Source: Gemmobacter aquaticus
Lineage (GTDB): Bacteria > Pseudomonadota > Alphaproteobacteria > Rhodobacterales > Rhodobacteraceae
NCBI RefSeq assembly: GCF_007859075.1
Contig: NZ_VOAK01000022.1
Span: forward strand, 124,001-188,000
Length of the DNA stretch: 64,000 nt
Reading direction: 5' to 3'
The notes beneath the pieces are model-generated. The model saw nothing but the letters and a program-made list of their open reading frames with translations, searched no databases and was not told the origin of the DNA. Of this stretch, positions 55,812 to 64,000 are shown in pieces; the stretch's first letter is position 1, and every line of letters begins with the position of its first letter. Both the position numbers and the translations under genes were made by a program.

Positions 55812-58800
55812 TCAGGCCGCCACGGCAGGCTTGCGGCGCAGCCGGCTGACGGCATCCAGCACAAAGACGAAGAACACCGGCACAAAGAAGATCGCAAGGA
55901 TCGTGGCCGAGATCATCCCGCCGATCACCCCGGTGCCGATGGCGTTCTGGCTGGCGGCCGAGGGGCCCGTCGCGATGGCCAGCGGCACAACCCCCATCGT
56001 GAAGGCCAGCGAGGTCATCAGGATCGGCCGGAAGCGCAGCTTCGCGGCCTCGACTGCCGCCTCGATCAGGCTTTGTCCCTCGGCGCGCAGCTCCTTGGCA
56101 AACTCGACGATCAGGATGGCGTTCTTGGCCGAAAGCCCGATGATCGCGATGAGGCCCACCTTGAAGTAGACGTCATTGGGCATGTCGCGCAGCATCACCG
56201 CAACCACGCATCCCAGCACGCCCAAGGGCACCACCAGCATCACTGAAAGCGGGATCGACCAGCTTTCATAGAGACCCGACAGCAGCAGGAACACGAAGAC
56301 GATCGACATCGCGTACAGCAGGGTCGAGGTGCTGCCCGACTTGATCTCTTCCAGCGACTGGCCTGACCATTCGTAGCCAAACCCGGGCGGAAGTTGCGAT
56401 GCCAGACGCTCCATTTCAGCCATGGCATCGCCCGAGCTGAAGCCCGGCGCGGCCTGACCCGACAGGCGGACGGCCGGATAGCCGTTGTAGCCCACCACCT
56501 GCGACGGCCCCATCTGCCAGCGGAGCTGCGCGAAGGACGAGAAGGGCACCATGCCGCCGTTGGTGTTGGGCACCATCAGCTTCAGGATGTCCTCGGCCTG
56601 CATCCGCGCATTTGCATCCGCCTGAAGGATCACGCGCTGCAGTTTTCCGTTGTTGGGAAAGTCGTTGACGTAGGATGACCCCAGATACTGCGAAATCGTG
56701 GCGTTGATCGCGGCGAAGGTCACGCCAAAGGTATCGGCCTTCTCTCGGTCGATCTCTACCTGCACCTGTGCCGATGCAGGCATGCCTTCGGGATACATAC
56801 CGACGATGATGCCACCCTGCGCGGCGCCCGCCATCAACTGCCCGGCGGCGGCCTGCAAGGCCTGCTGGCCTAGACCGGAGCGGTCCTGCAGACGGAACGA
56901 GAACCCGCCCGAGGTGCCAAAGCCCGCGATCGCAGGCGGCGAAAGCGCGAACACCCGTGCATCCCGCATGCCGTAAAGCTGCATGTTGGCCGCATTGGCG
57001 ATATCCTGCGCTGAACGGTCACGCTCGGCCCAGTCTTTCAGGGTGATGAACATCAGGCCCGCATTTGTGCCCTGACCCGAGAAGCTGAACCCACGGATCG
57101 CAACCACGTTCTCGACCGCATCATCGGCCATGAAGTGCTCGCTGATCGACTTGAGCGCGGCATCGGTGCGGTTCACCGATGAGGCGGGCGGGGTCTGCAC
57201 GTCAGCGATCAGATAGCCCTGATCCTCGTTCGGCAGGAAGCCCGTGGGCAGGCGCACGAAGCCAAGCGCCGTCAGGGTGACGAGACCGAGGTAGATCAGC
57301 ATCATCAGCACCGTTCGCCGCGTGATGATCGAGAGACTGCGGCCATAGCGCTGGGTCAGCTTCTCGAAGCTGCGGTTGAACCAGCCAAAGAAGCCGCCGC
57401 GCTCGTGATGCCCGCTGACGGGTTTCAGGAACGTCGCGCACAGCGCAGGCGTCAGGGTCAGTGCAAGGAAGGCCGAGAACAGGATCGACACCACCATGGT
57501 CAGCGCGAACTGGCGGTAGATGATGCCGGTCGCGCCAGGGAAAAAGGCCATCGGGATGAACACGGCTGCCAGAACCAGCGTGACGCCGACAATCGCGCCT
57601 GTGATCTGGCCCATGGCCTTTTCGGTCGCTTCTCGCGGTGGCAGGCCTTCGGTTGCCATGATCCGCTCGACGTTTTCGATGACCACGATGGCATCGTCGA
57701 CAAGGATGCCGATGGCAAGAACCATCGCGAACATCGTCAGCACGTTGATCGAGAAGCCCGCCATATACATCACGCCGATCGTGCCCATCAACGCGATCGG
57801 GACCACGATCGTGGGGATCACGGTGTAGCGGAAGTTCTGCAGGAAGATGAACATCACGATGAACACCAGAACCACAGCTTCGATCAGCGTATGCACCACC
57901 TTTTCGATCGAGGCTGCCACGAAAGGCGCGGTGTCATAGGGGATCGAATAGCTGACGCCCTCCGGGAAGAACTTTGACAGCTCCTCCATCTTGGCAGCGA
58001 TGGCCGCCGAGGTCTGGAGGGCATTGCCGGTGCTGGTCAGCTGCACGCCGATGGCGGCGGTGGGCTGGTTGTTGAGCCAGGTTGATTGGGCGTAGCTTTC
58101 CGATCCGATCTCAACCCGCGCGACGTCCTTCAGCCGGACCAGAGATCCGTCCGGGTTCGAGCGCAGCACGATGTTCTCGAATTCTTCGATTGTGCTGAGC
58201 TGACCCTTGATCAGGACCGTCGCGGTCAGTTGCTGGGCAAGCGGGTTCGGTTCCGCCCCGATGGCCCCGGCCGAGACCTGCGCGTTCTGGGCACGGATCG
58301 CGGTGGAGACATCGGCCGTTGAAAGCCTGAGGCCTGTCATCTTCGACGGATCGAGCCATACCCTGAGCGCGCGTTCGGACGAGAACACCTGCGCGCTACC
58401 CACGCCCGAGATCCGGCGCAGTTCGCCGACCACGTTGCGGTTGACGTAGTCCCCCAGGTCGGTCGCATCGCGGCTGCCGTCTTCCGAGGTCAGCGCCACC
58501 ACCAGAAGGAAACCTGCGCCTGCCTCTTCGACCTGGATGCCCTGATCGATCACGCTTTGCGGCAGCAGGGGCTCTACCCGGCGGACGGCGTTCTGCACAT
58601 CTACCTGGGCATCGCCGGTATCCGTGCCGGGCTCAAAGGTTGCCGTGATCGACACCGCGCCCGACGAGTCGGCAGTCGATTCGAAATACATGATCCCTTC
58701 GACGCCGTTCAGCTCTTCCTCGATGGGCTGGGCGACACTGCGGTGGATCTCTTCAGGAGAGGCCCCGACATAGAAGGTCGAAACCGAGATCTGCGGCGGG

Positions 58801-58916
58801 GCGACCGACGGGTATTGCGCAACCGGAATGATCGGAAGCGCCACCAGCCCGGCGATCACGATAAAGATCGCGATAACCCAGGCCAGAACCGGACGGTGGA
58901 TGAAGAAATGGGCCAT
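55812..58916 (-). CDS. RND efflux pump inner-membrane transporter (HAE-1, AcrB/MexB type)
   Basis: A 1034-residue drug/proton antiporter. Twelve membrane helices with two large periplasmic loops fit the HAE-1 layout. The proton-relay aspartates are D407 and D408 in GILVDDAIVVIENVER, at the AcrB numbering. A Lys in GLSAKNAILIVEFA matches the TM10 Lys. FFIHRPVLAWVIAIFI opens the protein. It forms one minus-strand operon with the adaptor and TetR genes. No TolC-type channel is encoded beside it, so a housekeeping channel is probably used. Confidence 0.95.
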   Translation of the reverse strand: MAHFFIHRPVLAWVIAIFIVIAGLVALPIIPVAQYPSVAPPQISVSTFYVGASPEEIHRSVAQPIEEELNGVEGIMYFESTADSSGAVSITATFEPGTDTGDAQVDVQNAVRRVEPLLPQSVIDQGIQVEEAGAGFLLVVALTSEDGSRDATDLGDYVNRNVVGELRRISGVGSAQVFSSERALRVWLDPSKMTGLRLSTADVSTAIRAQNAQVSAGAIGAEPNPLAQQLTATVLIKGQLSTIEEFENIVLRSNPDGSLVRLKDVARVEIGSESYAQSTWLNNQPTAAIGVQLTSTGNALQTSAAIAAKMEELSKFFPEGVSYSIPYDTAPFVAASIEKVVHTLIEAVVLVFIVMFIFLQNFRYTVIPTIVVPIALMGTIGVMYMAGFSINVLTMFAMVLAIGILVDDAIVVIENVERIMATEGLPPREATEKAMGQITGAIVGVTLVLAAVFIPMAFFPGATGIIYRQFALTMVVSILFSAFLALTLTPALCATFLKPVSGHHERGGFFGWFNRSFEKLTQRYGRSLSIITRRTVLMMLIYLGLVTLTALGFVRLPTGFLPNEDQGYLIADVQTPPASSVNRTDAALKSISEHFMADDAVENVVAIRGFSFSGQGTNAGLMFITLKDWAERDRSAQDIANAANMQLYGMRDARVFALSPPAIAGFGTSGGFSFRLQDRSGLGQQALQAAAGQLMAGAAQGGIIVGMYPEGMPASAQVQVEIDREKADTFGVTFAAINATISQYLGSSYVNDFPNNGKLQRVILQADANARMQAEDILKLMVPNTNGGMVPFSSFAQLRWQMGPSQVVGYNGYPAVRLSGQAAPGFSSGDAMAEMERLASQLPPGFGYEWSGQSLEEIKSGSTSTLLYAMSIVFVFLLLSGLYESWSIPLSVMLVVPLGVLGCVVAVMLRDMPNDVYFKVGLIAIIGLSAKNAILIVEFAKELRAEGQSLIEAAVEAAKLRFRPILMTSLAFTMGVVPLAIATGPSAASQNAIGTGVIGGMISATILAIFFVPVFFVFVLDAVSRLRRKPAVAA

Positions 58917-58928
58917 GTTTGCCTGCCC

Positions 58929-60083
58929 TCAGTTCTGCGGCGCGTCAGTGGCCGCGGGCTGCCACGGTTCGGGGACGACGGCGGCGCCCGGGAACAGCTT
59001 CTGCGCCCCCTCGACCACAACCTTGTCCCCGGCGTTCAGACCACTCTCGACGATCCATGACGAGCCGACCGAGGTGCCAAGCCGGATTGACCGGACGGAA
59101 ACCTTGTTGTCGGTGCCGATGACATAGACCTGCGCATTGCCTTGGGCATCTCGCTGCACGGCCATCTGCGGCACTGCCAGCGCGTGCTCGCGGACGGCCT
59201 GTTCGACGGCGACGCGAACGTAAAGCCCCGGAAGCAAAAGGTTTTTTGTATTCGGGAACTCGCCGCGCATCGTGACCTGTCCGGTCAACTCGTCCACGGT
59301 CGCTTCCGAGAACAGAACCTCACCGGGCTGTTCGTATTCGGTCCCGTCGTCAAAGTAGAGACGCATCTGTGCGGTATTCGCATCGACGGCAACCAGCTCG
59401 CCCACCTCAAGCGCACGGCGCAGCTTGAACAGCTCGGCCGAGGATTGCGTAAAGTCGACATAGACCGGGTCAAGCTGCTGGATCGTTGCCATGATCTCGG
59501 TCTGCGCGGTCACCAGCGCGCCCTCGGTCACCAGTGCCCGGCCAATGATGCCGGAGATCGGCGCCTTGACCTCGGTGTAGTCGAGATTGAGCTGCGCCTC
59601 GGCCAGCGCGGCTTCGGCAATCGCCACATCCGCGTCCGCCTGGGCAAGAGTGGTGACCGCGTTCTCAAGATCGACGCCTGCGGTGATATTGCGATCACGC
59701 AGGGTCTGGGCGCGCTTCTGCTGGTCTTGCGCGTTCAGCTGACCAGCTTTGGCCTTGGCGAGCGTCGCCTCGGCACTGGCGACACGCACACGGAATGGCG
59801 CAGGGTCGATGCGATAGAGCACGTCACCTGCCTTGACGGTGCTGCCCTGCTCAAACACCCGCTCCAGCACGATTCCACTGATCCGCGGACGAACCTCGGC
59901 CAGTCGCGTGGCCGAGACACGGCCCGGCAGTTCATTGATCACCGGCAGAGGCTGGGGCTTCAGCTCCAGAAAGCTGACCGGCGTTGGGGGCATCTCTCCG
60001 CCTTGCTGAGAGATCGCAGCAGGAGCAAGGAAGGGCAGGCAGAGCGCCGCAACCAGAATCCGGAATGAGAGGGGGCGTTTCAT
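58929..60083 (-). CDS. RND efflux periplasmic adaptor (MFP, AcrA type)
   Basis: A 384-residue membrane fusion protein with a signal peptide (AAISQQG). Blocks are LPGRVSATRLAEVRPRISGIVLER, the LNYTEVKAP-like LDYTEVKAPISGIIGRALV, and a C-terminal LPGLYVRVAVEQ barrel. A coiled-coil hairpin lies between the two halves of the lipoyl domain. It bridges the RND pump and an outer-membrane channel. Twelve bases separate it from the RND gene. Confidence 0.94.
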   Translation of the reverse strand: MKRPLSFRILVAALCLPFLAPAAISQQGGEMPPTPVSFLELKPQPLPVINELPGRVSATRLAEVRPRISGIVLERVFEQGSTVKAGDVLYRIDPAPFRVRVASAEATLAKAKAGQLNAQDQQKRAQTLRDRNITAGVDLENAVTTLAQADADVAIAEAALAEAQLNLDYTEVKAPISGIIGRALVTEGALVTAQTEIMATIQQLDPVYVDFTQSSAELFKLRRALEVGELVAVDANTAQMRLYFDDGTEYEQPGEVLFSEATVDELTGQVTMRGEFPNTKNLLLPGLYVRVAVEQAVREHALAVPQMAVQRDAQGNAQVYVIGTDNKVSVRSIRLGTSVGSSWIVESGLNAGDKVVVEGAQKLFPGAAVVPEPWQPAATDAPQN

Positions 60084-60089
60084 TTGTCT

Positions 60090-60671
60090 TCACCTAACGG
60101 AGTGTTCAGGGTGATTCGGATCTTGGGATGCAGTCAGAAGATCCATGATATCGTCAGCGATCTCTTGGCGTCTGTCCGAAGAGAAAGCGTGAAAGCCGGA
60201 ATATTCAAGGCATTGCAGCCCGTGAATCGCAAGGTAGGCAAGGATCGCCCGGCGGGGGGCGGGGGAGTCCGTGTCGATCCGGTTCAGATCTTCGGCCACG
60301 GTGCGGGCGATAATGGCCCGGCAGGATTCGCTGTCCCCGGTGCCCGAAGCCACGATCGTCGCAACATCGAGGTCATCTGCCGTCGGCTCCTCGCGCAGGC
60401 AATCGACCCAGCCCCGCAGCCAGGCATCGGTGGCATCCCCATGCAGGCTGGCCCGGTCCGTGATGTTGGCCCGCCATTCGGACAGGCGGGTGTCGATATA
60501 GGCCTCTAGCAGGGCAGACTTGCTGCCAAAGTCATAAAGGACGCTGGATTTGCTGATGCCGGCCGCCTTGGCCACTGCGTCGATGCTGAGTGCGGCAAAG
60601 CCACGCTCGCGCACCACGGTCTCGATCGCGCGCAAGGTCGCCTGACGGTCGATTGTCTTCCTGCGTCCCAT
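60090..60671 (-). CDS. TetR family regulator of the RND pump
   Basis: A 193-residue repressor. The N-terminal HTH is RKTIDRQATLRAIETVVRERGFAALSIDAVAKAAGISKSSVLYDFGSK. The C-terminal ligand domain is all-helical. ATG 60671 matches typical TetR openings (MGRRKT); the TTG at 60695 is unlikely. A 28-bp palindrome covers its promoter, pointing to autoregulation of the tetR-mfp-rnd operon. Its coding end is six bases from the adaptor gene. Confidence 0.9.
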   Translation of the reverse strand: MGRRKTIDRQATLRAIETVVRERGFAALSIDAVAKAAGISKSSVLYDFGSKSALLEAYIDTRLSEWRANITDRASLHGDATDAWLRGWVDCLREEPTADDLDVATIVASGTGDSESCRAIIARTVAEDLNRIDTDSPAPRRAILAYLAIHGLQCLEYSGFHAFSSDRRQEIADDIMDLLTASQDPNHPEHSVR

Positions 60672-60681
60672 GCGCGCCCCA

Positions 60682-60709
60682 GAATATCGGTCCAATCGTT
60701 CGGATATTC
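60682..60709. promoter_or_regulatory. Palindromic operator candidate for TetR
   Basis: GAATATC (60682-60688) and GATATTC (60703-60709) are perfect inverted arms separated by 14 bases, centred 24 bases upstream of the tetR ATG. Size and place match TetR-type operators. Confidence 0.6.
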
Positions 60710-60967: not shown

Positions 60968-63900
60968 GTGACACGAACCGTCCGTTTCCGGCAGTTTGCG
61001 GCCTCGACGCAATCGATCCTGGAAGAGCTTCTTGCTCCCCTTGTCGACAGGGCTGAGCGCGATGGTGCCAGTTCGCCGGCATCGCAGTCGATTGATTTTC
61101 GCCAAGCAGCGTCCAGCCGGTCGCCAGCAGCTGCCCTAGGTGCAGCGCACGCCCTTGCCGAGGTACCCGCTGCCAACACATGCACCGCCGCATTTGCCGA
61201 GATAGGAGAGCGCGGATTCGCGCTGGTGCTGATGCCGCCCGCAGGAACCAGCATTCCGGTTGGCGCATTTTGCGCGGTTGTCGACGCTGTTTCTGTCAGG
61301 TTTGGGCAGTGGAAGGGTTCGACAGGTGCCGCCGAACAGCTTGCGATCACGGATCGCGCGGCGTCGACTGCGATCCTTCTGCATCACGGGGCTGCGCGCT
61401 CGGTGCTGATCCATGCCGCCGATGGGTCGATCTGCCTGATGAAGCACGAGGCCCAGACCGGCGTTTCCGGATCGACGCTGAGGTCGGTCGCGCAGCGCTG
61501 TGGCACGGATATGGAAGGTCTTCTGGTATCGACATGGGCTCTGATTCTGGCCCGGACCTGCGGCCTGGACCATGCGGCCTTTGCGACCCGCGGGGATGCG
61601 ACCTCAGGGAAAGTGGAACTGCGCACCGTTGATCTGGTGGGATGCAAGACCCTGTCTGATCTGTTGGGGGCCGCACATGCAGAGACCGGCGCACCGCAGA
61701 TGGAAGTTGCGCAGCTTGCCAACTGGCCAGAGCATGCGGATCGCCAGCCGGTCTACGAGACGCTGCTGGACACAACGGGCACTGGGGCCGACGCGATTGG
61801 ACTGACCTTTCAGGTGCGTGCTGAGATCGGCAGTGATGGCCCGGTGACCCTGCTTGCCCGGCAGTTGCCCGGCGGAGAGGCGAACCCGCTCTCTGCCTTC
61901 CTGCAGGGCGCTTCGCTGACTGCCGGTTTTGCACGGCTGCTCGACGCGACCTCTACCGCCGGCCCAGATTCAGCGCTTTGCGCTTTGGACATGCTTGATC
62001 CGGGCGAGCGGGCCGAGTTGCTGCGCCTTGCCTCGCCGGATGTGGAACTGGCCGAGGCATCACCGTGCCCAATCACGCGCTTCGAGGCGATCGCCGCGGC
62101 ACAGCCCGAAGCCTGGGCGCTGATCTCCGACACCGATGGCGATGCCATCACCTACGTTCAGCTTGACCGGCGGGCGAACGCGCTTGCCCACCGGCTGGGC
62201 AAGGTAGGCTGCGGCCCCGAGCGCATCTGTGCGATCAACCTGCCGCGCGGGGTGGAATTCATCATCGCAATGCTCGCGGTCCTGAAGTGCGGGGGTGCCT
62301 TCCTGCCTCTGGACATGGCGCTCCCCGAGACCGAGCGCGCTATTCGCGCGGCCGAGGCAGGCGTCGATGTCGTGATCGGGCATGAGGGGCTGGCCGGTCT
62401 TGCGGTTGCCGTTCTGGCCCCGGATGCAGCGCAGCGGGACGATCCGCCGGCGCGCCCGGCACCCGATGTCGGACGGCTGGCCTATCTGATCCATACGTCG
62501 GGTTCGACCGGGCGGCCAAAGGGGGTCATGGGCACCACCGGCGCGCTCTCGGCACACGCCTCGGCGGTGATCGCGGCCTATGGTCTTCACGCTGAAGATC
62601 GGGTCCTGCACTTTGCCTCGCCGGGCTTTGACGTCGCGCTGGAAGAGATTTTCCCGACGCTCCTTTGCGGCGCTCTCCTCGTCGTCCGGGCCGAGGACAG
62701 GGCTGAATCGATAAATGCGTTCCTCACGCTTCTGCAGGCCAGGAAGCTGACTGTGCTGAACCTGCCTGCAAGTTTCTGGCATGTTCTGGTCACTGAGATG
62801 GCCCATCGCAACCTGCGTTTGCCCGAGTCGGTTCGACTTGTCGTCACCGGCAGCGAGCGGATCCTGCCCGCGGCGCTGGCGCAATGGCAGCAGCTTGCGC
62901 CGGGATGCAGATGGATCAATGGCTATGGCCCGACCGAGACCACCATTACCGCGACGATCCACGCGCCCGATTTGACGGGACCGCCCGTTGACCCTGTTGC
63001 CGATGTTCCCATCGGGCGCCCGCTGGCCCATGCGACGGCGCATGTCCTTGCATTTGATGGAAGTCTTGCCCCCCCTGGGGCAGAGGGGACACTGCACATC
63101 GGTGGCCCGGCCGTAACGCGCGGCTATCTGCACCAGCCTGAGGCGACGGCCGCAGTCTTCGGGTCAGATCCGTTCGGGTCAGTGGGTGGACGTCTCTACA
63201 ACACCGGCGACAGGGCGCGCTGGCGTCCCGATGGGGCGCTTGACTTCCTCGGGCGGCGTGACCGGCAGGTGAAGCTGCGCGGGCAGCGCATCGACCTTGG
63301 CGAGATCGAGCGTGCCCTAGGCCAGTTTGACGCGGTGCGCGAGGCACGTGTGGCGGTTGACGCCGCGGGAACGGATGCCGCGCGGCTGATCGCGTGGGTC
63401 ACCGGCCCGGATATGGCCGAAGGTCGGCCTGTGCCTGCGGGATTGGTCGAGAATGTCGCGCGCCATATGTCGGGGGCGACACGACCTGTGATCGTGCCGG
63501 TGTCGGGTTTTCCACTAAAGCCGAATGGCAAGGTGGATATGGCAGCCCTGCCCCGCCCGGTCTTCCGAGGCGGCGCGCCAGAGTCTGGCCCGGTTGATGC
63601 GCAGACCGAGGCCGTCCTCGCCTGCCTGGCCGAGGTTCTGGGCAAGGGTGCGACAGATCCGGACATGGACATTCGCGACCTCGGGGCGAATTCATTGGTC
63701 GCGCTACGGCTCGCCTCGGTGCTGGAGGGGCGCTTTGGCCGCCCGGTTGTAGCGACAGATCTCTATCGAAACCCGACAGCGCGCAAGATTGCCCGCTTTC
63801 TTGAAACTGAGTTCGACGTTCCGCGCACGGTGGTGCCAATCCAGACCGGCGGCACCAAGCCCCCCTTCCTTGCGGTGCATGTGCTGGGCGAGAAAGAGAT

Positions 63901-64000
63901 GCTGTTCCGCCCGCTTGCTGCCGCTCTTGGCCCGGACTATCCGGTCTATGGGCTGACGGTAGGCCCACCGTCCAGCCTGTCGGAAGTTACAGTCGAGGGG
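60968..64000 (+). CDS. NRPS-like synthetase (partial; C-like remnant, A, PCP, start of TE), continues past window
   Basis: An uninterrupted 1011-codon frame that runs off the window. GTG 60968 is the first start after an in-frame TGA at 60956. Residues about 1-360 look like the back half of a condensation domain (LLVSTWALILAR, then a FQV...LLARQ strand) without HHxxxDG. Adenylation motifs follow: HTSGSTGRPKG at 509, FDVALEE at 554, NGYGPTE at 651, GDRARWRPDG, KLRGQRIDLGEIE, and NGKVD with K855. A carrier Ser is S909 in GANSLVAL. From about 955, KPPFLAVHVLGEKEMLFRPLAAALGPDYPVYGL resembles a type I thioesterase. The pocket read against GrsA is D-V-E-N-V-G-G-I-T with K; the acidic E/N pair recalls the hydroxyornithine code, a weak inference. 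Confidence 0.85.
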   Translation, partial: MTRTVRFRQFAASTQSILEELLAPLVDRAERDGASSPASQSIDFRQAASSRSPAAALGAAHALAEVPAANTCTAAFAEIGERGFALVLMPPAGTSIPVGAFCAVVDAVSVRFGQWKGSTGAAEQLAITDRAASTAILLHHGAARSVLIHAADGSICLMKHEAQTGVSGSTLRSVAQRCGTDMEGLLVSTWALILARTCGLDHAAFATRGDATSGKVELRTVDLVGCKTLSDLLGAAHAETGAPQMEVAQLANWPEHADRQPVYETLLDTTGTGADAIGLTFQVRAEIGSDGPVTLLARQLPGGEANPLSAFLQGASLTAGFARLLDATSTAGPDSALCALDMLDPGERAELLRLASPDVELAEASPCPITRFEAIAAAQPEAWALISDTDGDAITYVQLDRRANALAHRLGKVGCGPERICAINLPRGVEFIIAMLAVLKCGGAFLPLDMALPETERAIRAAEAGVDVVIGHEGLAGLAVAVLAPDAAQRDDPPARPAPDVGRLAYLIHTSGSTGRPKGVMGTTGALSAHASAVIAAYGLHAEDRVLHFASPGFDVALEEIFPTLLCGALLVVRAEDRAESINAFLTLLQARKLTVLNLPASFWHVLVTEMAHRNLRLPESVRLVVTGSERILPAALAQWQQLAPGCRWINGYGPTETTITATIHAPDLTGPPVDPVADVPIGRPLAHATAHVLAFDGSLAPPGAEGTLHIGGPAVTRGYLHQPEATAAVFGSDPFGSVGGRLYNTGDRARWRPDGALDFLGRRDRQVKLRGQRIDLGEIERALGQFDAVREARVAVDAAGTDAARLIAWVTGPDMAEGRPVPAGLVENVARHMSGATRPVIVPVSGFPLKPNGKVDMAALPRPVFRGGAPESGPVDAQTEAVLACLAEVLGKGATDPDMDIRDLGANSLVALRLASVLEGRFGRPVVATDLYRNPTARKIARFLETEFDVPRTVVPIQTGGTKPPFLAVHVLGEKEMLFRPLAAALGPDYPVYGLTVGPPSSLSEVTVEG

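Follow-up and report, generated by a model that had tools for sequence, protein, structure and literature searches.

At the right-hand end of the window (the whole stretch of 64,000 nucleotides that was analysed, i.e., C22:124001-188000 of a host genome of 27 contigs and 3,986,766 bases), a gene begins that an earlier note had read as a stand-alone enzyme made of adenylation, carrier and thioesterase domains and preceded by a condensation region without an active site. The question raised by this locus is what such a truncated nonribosomal peptide synthetase (NRPS) might be and what it might still do. The open reading frame starts with a GTG at position 60,968 of the forward strand, with AAGG- and GGAG-like stretches 5' of it, and is open up to the end of the window; its stop lies at window-equivalent 64,585 (whole gene 60,968..64,000 and on to 64,585; L003:8968-12585), and the gene encodes 1205 amino acids with uninterrupted codons. 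The Pfam models AMP-binding (residues 372-721, E 5.8e-68), PP-binding (882-945, E 3.8e-13) and Thioesterase (971-1198, E 5.4e-16) all matched the protein. According to Pfam, the family alignment and the profile, the adenylation (A) domain comprises residues 366-865 (62,063..63,562, forward strand) and carries the A10 lysine K855; the peptidyl carrier (T) domain, with Ser909 embedded in the motif GANSL, follows at 63,590..63,811 on the same strand (Pfam and alignment). The type I thioesterase (TE, residues 955-1203) starts at 63,830 on the same strand and extends through the end of the window to equivalent 64,576 (Pfam, alignment and model); its catalytic residues, placed by alignments at Ser1035, Asp1062 and His1182, are encoded beyond the window end, and its predicted structure has a mean pLDDT of 90.4. 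On the basis of these matches the three domains are complete, and they possess the catalytic residues of a canonical NRPS termination module, whose complete condensation (C) domain is absent. Hence, Pfam, motifs and profiles bear out the domain order of the earlier reading and the lack of a condensation active site.

The analysis of the N-terminal region revealed a composite situation. No Condensation match was disclosed by Pfam in the full-length protein at E<=0.1, and residues 1-370 searched alone reached no better than E 0.45 with this model, the match spanning residues 169-208. The region of about 350 residues that had been described ahead of the A domain does lack the active site, but it can be divided into two parts: residues 1-168 (60,968..61,471, forward strand), without detectable homology to the N lobe of C domains (six-frame N-lobe profile and AlphaFold2), and residues 169-352 (61,472..62,023, forward strand), corresponding to a degraded condensation C lobe (C-lobe profile and terminal branch). 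A profile of the N lobe was built from 15 relatives, whose own scores, high by construction, start at 181 bits for a contig-end fragment and reach 313 bits; it gave at most 0.3 bits when the 5.7 kb surrounding the gene were scanned in all six frames, and a frameshifted remnant of the N lobe was therefore rejected. The C-lobe profile assigned 31.5 bits to the window protein vs 279 to its Gemmobacter caeruleus ortholog (L028), the A-domain profile 686 vs 720. The window C lobe is strongly diverged, with deletions, and the identity to L028 is lowered up to about residue 320 and sister-like from about residue 321 on. The coding bias is weaker over the first 112 codons, and the AlphaFold2 block means of pLDDT, obtained with a 13-row alignment, lie between 27 and 57 as far as residue 160 and between 55 and 94 over residues 161-360. 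When residues 1-361 were used as a probe against 198 family genomes, only two matches beyond the window genome were retrieved, both short (E 3.0e-5 and 2.4e-4) and covering only residues 316-360 and 235-304, respectively. The possibility that the 5' codons came from elsewhere in the genus was also rejected, since ten other Gemmobacter genomes yielded only short and weak matches (best E 0.0076, with a limit of E<=1).

The terminal branches measured on one fixed tree differ among the domains. In the C lobe, the window protein has a branch of 1.96 vs 0.39 and 0.40 in its sisters; the corresponding values are 0.30 vs 0.25 and 0.30 in the A domain, 0.39 vs 0.20 and 0.18 in the T domain, and 0.44 vs 0.16 and 0.34 in the TE; if the best-aligned C-lobe blocks alone are considered, the values become 1.07 vs 0.50 and 0.40, i.e., an excess of only about two-fold. 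On the evidence of profiles and branches, a broken condensation domain makes up the N-terminal region; its N lobe is gone and its C lobe is fast-evolving. In our reading this points to an old loss of condensation, followed by continued constraint on the A domain and a weaker one on T and TE; the simplest reading of the synthetase at the sequence level is that condensation was lost and A-T-TE kept.

In order to place the gene, its relatives were searched for. Orthologs are harbored by G. caeruleus N8 (L028) and G. serpentinus HB-1 (L029), with 1310 and 1320 amino acids, respectively; both possess a Condensation domain (E 2.7e-29 and 6.9e-35) with the motif HHALLDL. The synthetase gene is thus found in 3/11 Gemmobacter genomes, two of the eight without an ortholog being only 82-87% complete. 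A probe of the TE, run against 394 genomes of the family in the GTDB sense (about one per genus), retrieved 13 places in 12 genomes at no less than 141 bits; the next place scored 99.9 bits, in a frame of 385 amino acids, and those at or below 87 bits belonged for the most part to another conserved protein, about 2150 amino acids long. Across the class (385 genomes), scores above 300 bits were obtained in the window genome and in one other of its family, and three further matches scored 108-117 bits. The TEs of the window protein and of G. caeruleus align with 321 bits and 62% identity, and the family-specific TE is present in the window protein. A whole-protein scan of genome contigs confirmed no relative.

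Overall, 19 members were compared, i.e., the window protein, the two Gemmobacter orthologs, twelve loci, and the copies from a Phaeobacter plasmid, Paracoccus marcusii, Paracoccus liaowanqingii and Sulfitobacter. One of them (L055) is a contig-end fragment; a 761-aa fragment at L052, pulled in by similarity, reads as the end of a polyketide synthase (PKS) and was left out, and a Bradyrhizobium match (L079, code DAWQFGLIDK) was set outside the family. The Ser, Asp and His residues of the TE are conserved in 19/19 members. As for the catalytic condensation motif HHxxxD(G), carried by the N lobe, its Asp and its second His occur in all 18 relatives, both His in 16/18 and the final Gly in 16/18; the exceptions are L056 (SHAILDG) and L077 (PHALLDG) for the first His, and the two Gemmobacter orthologs, without the Gly. 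The motif is not found in the window protein, whose N lobe is absent. Judging from these shared features, the window gene belongs, as a diverged member, to a family of Rhodobacterales C-A-T-TE synthetases that consist of a single module and stand alone; the family is of the known C-A-T-TE kind, of which the window form, devoid of the N lobe, is by the same comparison a variant.

The specificity residues read from the family alignment (D555, V556, E559, N598, V626, G628, G652, I660, T661 and K855) give DVENVGGITK, the same code as read earlier, and the pattern DV/IEN V/I G G/S/A I/V T K is shared by 19/19 members, including the window protein. The earlier note had compared it with the hydroxyornithine code DMENLGLINK and had proposed a synthetase of a hydroxyornithine-based hydroxamate siderophore. 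The two codes have D, E, N, G, I and K in common, and the basic side chain implied by this proposal is plausible; the siderophore is not supported and appears very unlikely. Indeed, no convincing ornithine or lysine monooxygenase was found in the genome: the three matches to PF13434 (Lys/Orn-monooxygenase) are partial, and the proteins concerned fit Pyr_redox_3, FMO-like or NAD_binding_9 better. No siderophore or other biosynthetic genes were recognised among the downstream ORFs, inspected mostly by eye, an outcome that the earlier note had itself set against its proposal. Neither an acyltransferase nor a TonB receptor was recognised by eye among the ORFs of the stretches L003 and L004 near the gene; no MbtH helper was found in the host genome, and nothing spoke in favor of the suggested cyclisation or trimerisation. 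None of five hydroxyornithine-type codes was found in the open-licence papers searched. In the Lys-activating domain of Pls_A, E217, four residues after D213, forms a salt bridge with the lysine epsilon-amine (PMC11253843). By the same D+4 spacing, E559 (position 239) may be the equivalent of this residue. Since position 239 is a Glu in 19/19 members and the Pls_A Glu binds the epsilon-amine, a basic amino acid is plausible, and it is probably the substrate of the whole family.

No partner or tailoring genes were recognised among the ORFs read near the gene. In the downstream ORFs, assigned mostly by eye and by Pfam for two of them, a sugar ABC transporter and a regulator are accompanied by a GlcNAc 2-epimerase-like protein and by flagellar and sugar genes. 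The sugar ABC operon lies directly downstream on the same strand, from window-equivalent 64,459 on (L003:12459-18113), and includes a binding protein identified by Pfam; inspection by eye added an ATPase, a GntR-type regulator and two permeases. On the other side, a TetR regulator, an RND adaptor and an RND permease adjoin the synthetase (55,812-60,695, reverse strand); the nearest named model of the adaptor is MexC, with a score under its cut-off. A partnership of these genes with the synthetase is not supported, since the TetR gene does not track with it across Gemmobacter: no match at E<=1e-20 was found in G. caeruleus or G. serpentinus, and the two other genomes with such a match are devoid of the synthetase. 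Flagellar genes, recognised by eye, are located near the synthetase in both G. caeruleus and the window genome. In G. serpentinus (L029:13414-16998) and in another genus (L051:12697-16243), the synthetase is located near a GST gene and apparent petABC genes.

A different picture emerges from the relatives. Glycan genes were recognised at 11/18 of their loci (L049, L052, L053, L054, L055, L056, L058, L060, P. marcusii, P. liaowanqingii and Sulfitobacter), in fetched stretches of differing length and with no control rate for other genes. As an example, in L049 and L053 (the Phaeobacter plasmid type) a GT4 glycosyltransferase and a polysaccharide pyruvyl transferase are located upstream and an amino-acid ABC transporter downstream, and the Sulfitobacter locus contains rfbCBD and a ManC-type gene. 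Six of the 18 loci (L052, L054, L056, L058 and the two Paracoccus) encode a Wzx-type flippase (PF13440 or an annotated oligosaccharide flippase); some of the glycan neighbors form flippase operons, and in L054 the flippase and synthetase genes share a 4-base overlap. L049 is the Phaeobacter inhibens plasmid pP59_c; here the intact relative has polysaccharide genes on one side and, on the other, an amino-acid ABC transporter operon that could supply the substrate of the synthetase. Rhamnose and polysaccharide genes are also carried by Phaeobacter plasmids with an intact relative. At the remaining loci (7/18: L028, L029, L051, L057, L059, L061 and L062) no glycan genes were recognised in a partial ORF annotation, and ten glycan-type query proteins gave no match either in the surroundings of the window gene or in the flanking stretches fetched for the two Gemmobacter orthologs; a probable mannose-1-phosphate guanylyltransferase, assigned by eye only, is separated from the G. 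caeruleus copy by about 5 kb. No described case of a glycan-linked single-module NRPS was recognised in the open-licence papers searched.

A phosphopantetheinyl transferase (PPTase), which the earlier note had advised to look for, does exist in the genome and is of the Sfp type, but it lies beside another cluster, about 166 kb away. This second cluster, conserved in Rhodobacteraceae, is located on the same contig, outside the window and about 155-166 kb from the synthetase (C22:18476-29916 and beyond; L083:6476-17916). It contains a PKS (incomplete at the limit of the fetched stretch) and a family-2 glycosyltransferase, together with a formyltransferase-A-luciferase-like monooxygenase-carrier protein and the PPTase; in L052 and P. 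marcusii, a like cluster adjoins the C-A-T-TE gene. Its monooxygenase was retrieved in 144/394 family genomes at E<=1e-40 (a few being weaker matches to other proteins), among which are all 12 genomes with the C-A-T-TE thioesterase (hypergeometric 4.2e-6); with genomes at least 90% complete, it occurs in 10/10 TE carriers and in 127/347 (3.4e-5), in a test that was post hoc and on genera that are not independent. The need for the PPTase of the cluster explains this co-occurrence equally well as a shared product. No product of such a cluster was found in the open-licence papers searched; a hybrid HSR/NRPS/PKS cluster on pCP157_02 is given as having no known product in the part of the source available (PMC8273931).

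The comparison with known systems helps in defining what is unusual. The window gene shares the A-T-TE order, the code, the VS-type nucleophile motif of the TE and the stand-alone module with the NRPS of the Phaeobacter plasmids of about 68-71 kb (PGA2_71p110/Inhi_3983), which differs in having an intact condensation domain and glycan and amino-acid ABC transporter neighbors. The family gene is present on the 70,384-bp plasmid NC_018422.1 of P. inhibens 2.10 (DSM 24588); therefore, Inhi_3983 and PGA2_71p110 were taken as family members. In the available part of the source, these P. inhibens genes, located on plasmids of 69 and 71 kb, respectively, are named without a function (PMC4062626). The layout of the family is like that of the solved C-A-T-TE termination modules EntF, SrfA-C and AB3403, the last of which (4zxh) aligns to the window protein over residues 392-1198. 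Unlike the window protein, these three have an active C domain and are parts of larger assembly lines. The A-T-TE enzymes of furanone/quinone biosynthesis have the same domain order without C; however, they activate alpha-keto acids and have no amine-binding Asp235, whereas this Asp is present in the window protein (D555). Finally, in the DltA/AlmE-type aminoacylation of envelope polymers, adenylation and a carrier decorate a polymer, as proposed here; those systems employ separate carrier and transferase proteins, whereas the window protein is one chain ending in a TE, for which transfer to a polymer may be proposed.

Taken together, these data might suggest, with a probability of about one half, that the window gene encodes a diverged family member that lost the catalytic N lobe, retained the C-lobe platform alone and works as an A-T-TE enzyme on one basic amino acid. 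The A domain, clearly constrained, would activate this amino acid as aminoacyl-AMP (as E559 and D555 suggest) and the aminoacyl group would be loaded onto the phosphopantetheine arm of Ser909, probably provided by the Sfp-type PPTase encoded elsewhere on the contig; the TE, constrained less clearly, as is the T domain, would then pass it from Ser1035-Asp1062-His1182 to water or to an acceptor. Without an acceptor, the outcome would be hydrolysis only. The main rival is an early pseudogene, in which the enzyme died when its condensation N lobe was lost and the remainder is drifting, with stop codons yet to come. The diverged C lobe with its deletions agrees with this, as do the T and TE branches exceeding those of the sisters, which are compatible with a slow decay of the whole gene, the lack of recognised partner genes nearby, the absence of the ortholog from eight of 11 Gemmobacter genomes (two of them incomplete, as said above), and the fact that no Condensation match was found elsewhere in the host genome at E<=0.001, so that none was found to act in trans. 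Nevertheless, 1205 uninterrupted codons, an A domain evolving at the rate of its sisters, and intact catalytic and code residues make such decay rather unlikely. The suspicion of an assembly or sequencing artefact, hiding a real gene with an intact condensation domain, arises from the availability of a single genome of the species, without a read check; since the C lobe diverges far beyond local error and no N-lobe remnant occurs in the six frames mentioned, it can hardly be credited.

If the truncated enzyme is active, it might instead release a free small product (a lactam, a diketopiperazine or the aminoacyl ester of a soluble acceptor) without any link to glycans. It is known that some A-T-TE enzymes dimerise their own substrate, and in the window genome the synthetase stands alone, adjoined by RND efflux genes; yet the TetR neighbor does not follow the synthetase through Gemmobacter and no tailoring genes were recognised, and a free product appears improbable. 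As for the proposed A-T-TE transferase, its acceptor might be guessed to be a sugar or another small envelope precursor, because many intact relatives are located in glycan loci. A wider and still doubtful proposal is that exported glycans or glycolipids are decorated with amino acids or N-acyl-amino acids by the single-module synthetases, as a class specific to Rhodobacterales that would act alongside glycosyltransferases, Wzx-type flippases and the conserved PKS/formyltransferase-A-monooxygenase-T cluster, and that the window member, having shed acylation, would transfer a bare basic amino acid via its TE.

The glycan loci of the intact relatives, on Phaeobacter plasmids and in Paracoccus clusters, suggest that single-module NRPSs may play a role in surface polymers. 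Provided that the truncated enzyme is active, it would represent a natural record of a module that shed its joining domain and kept loading and release, which bears on how such enzymes are re-used; with many of its relatives lying among sugar-polymer genes, the role left to the window enzyme may be to join one amino acid to some other partner.
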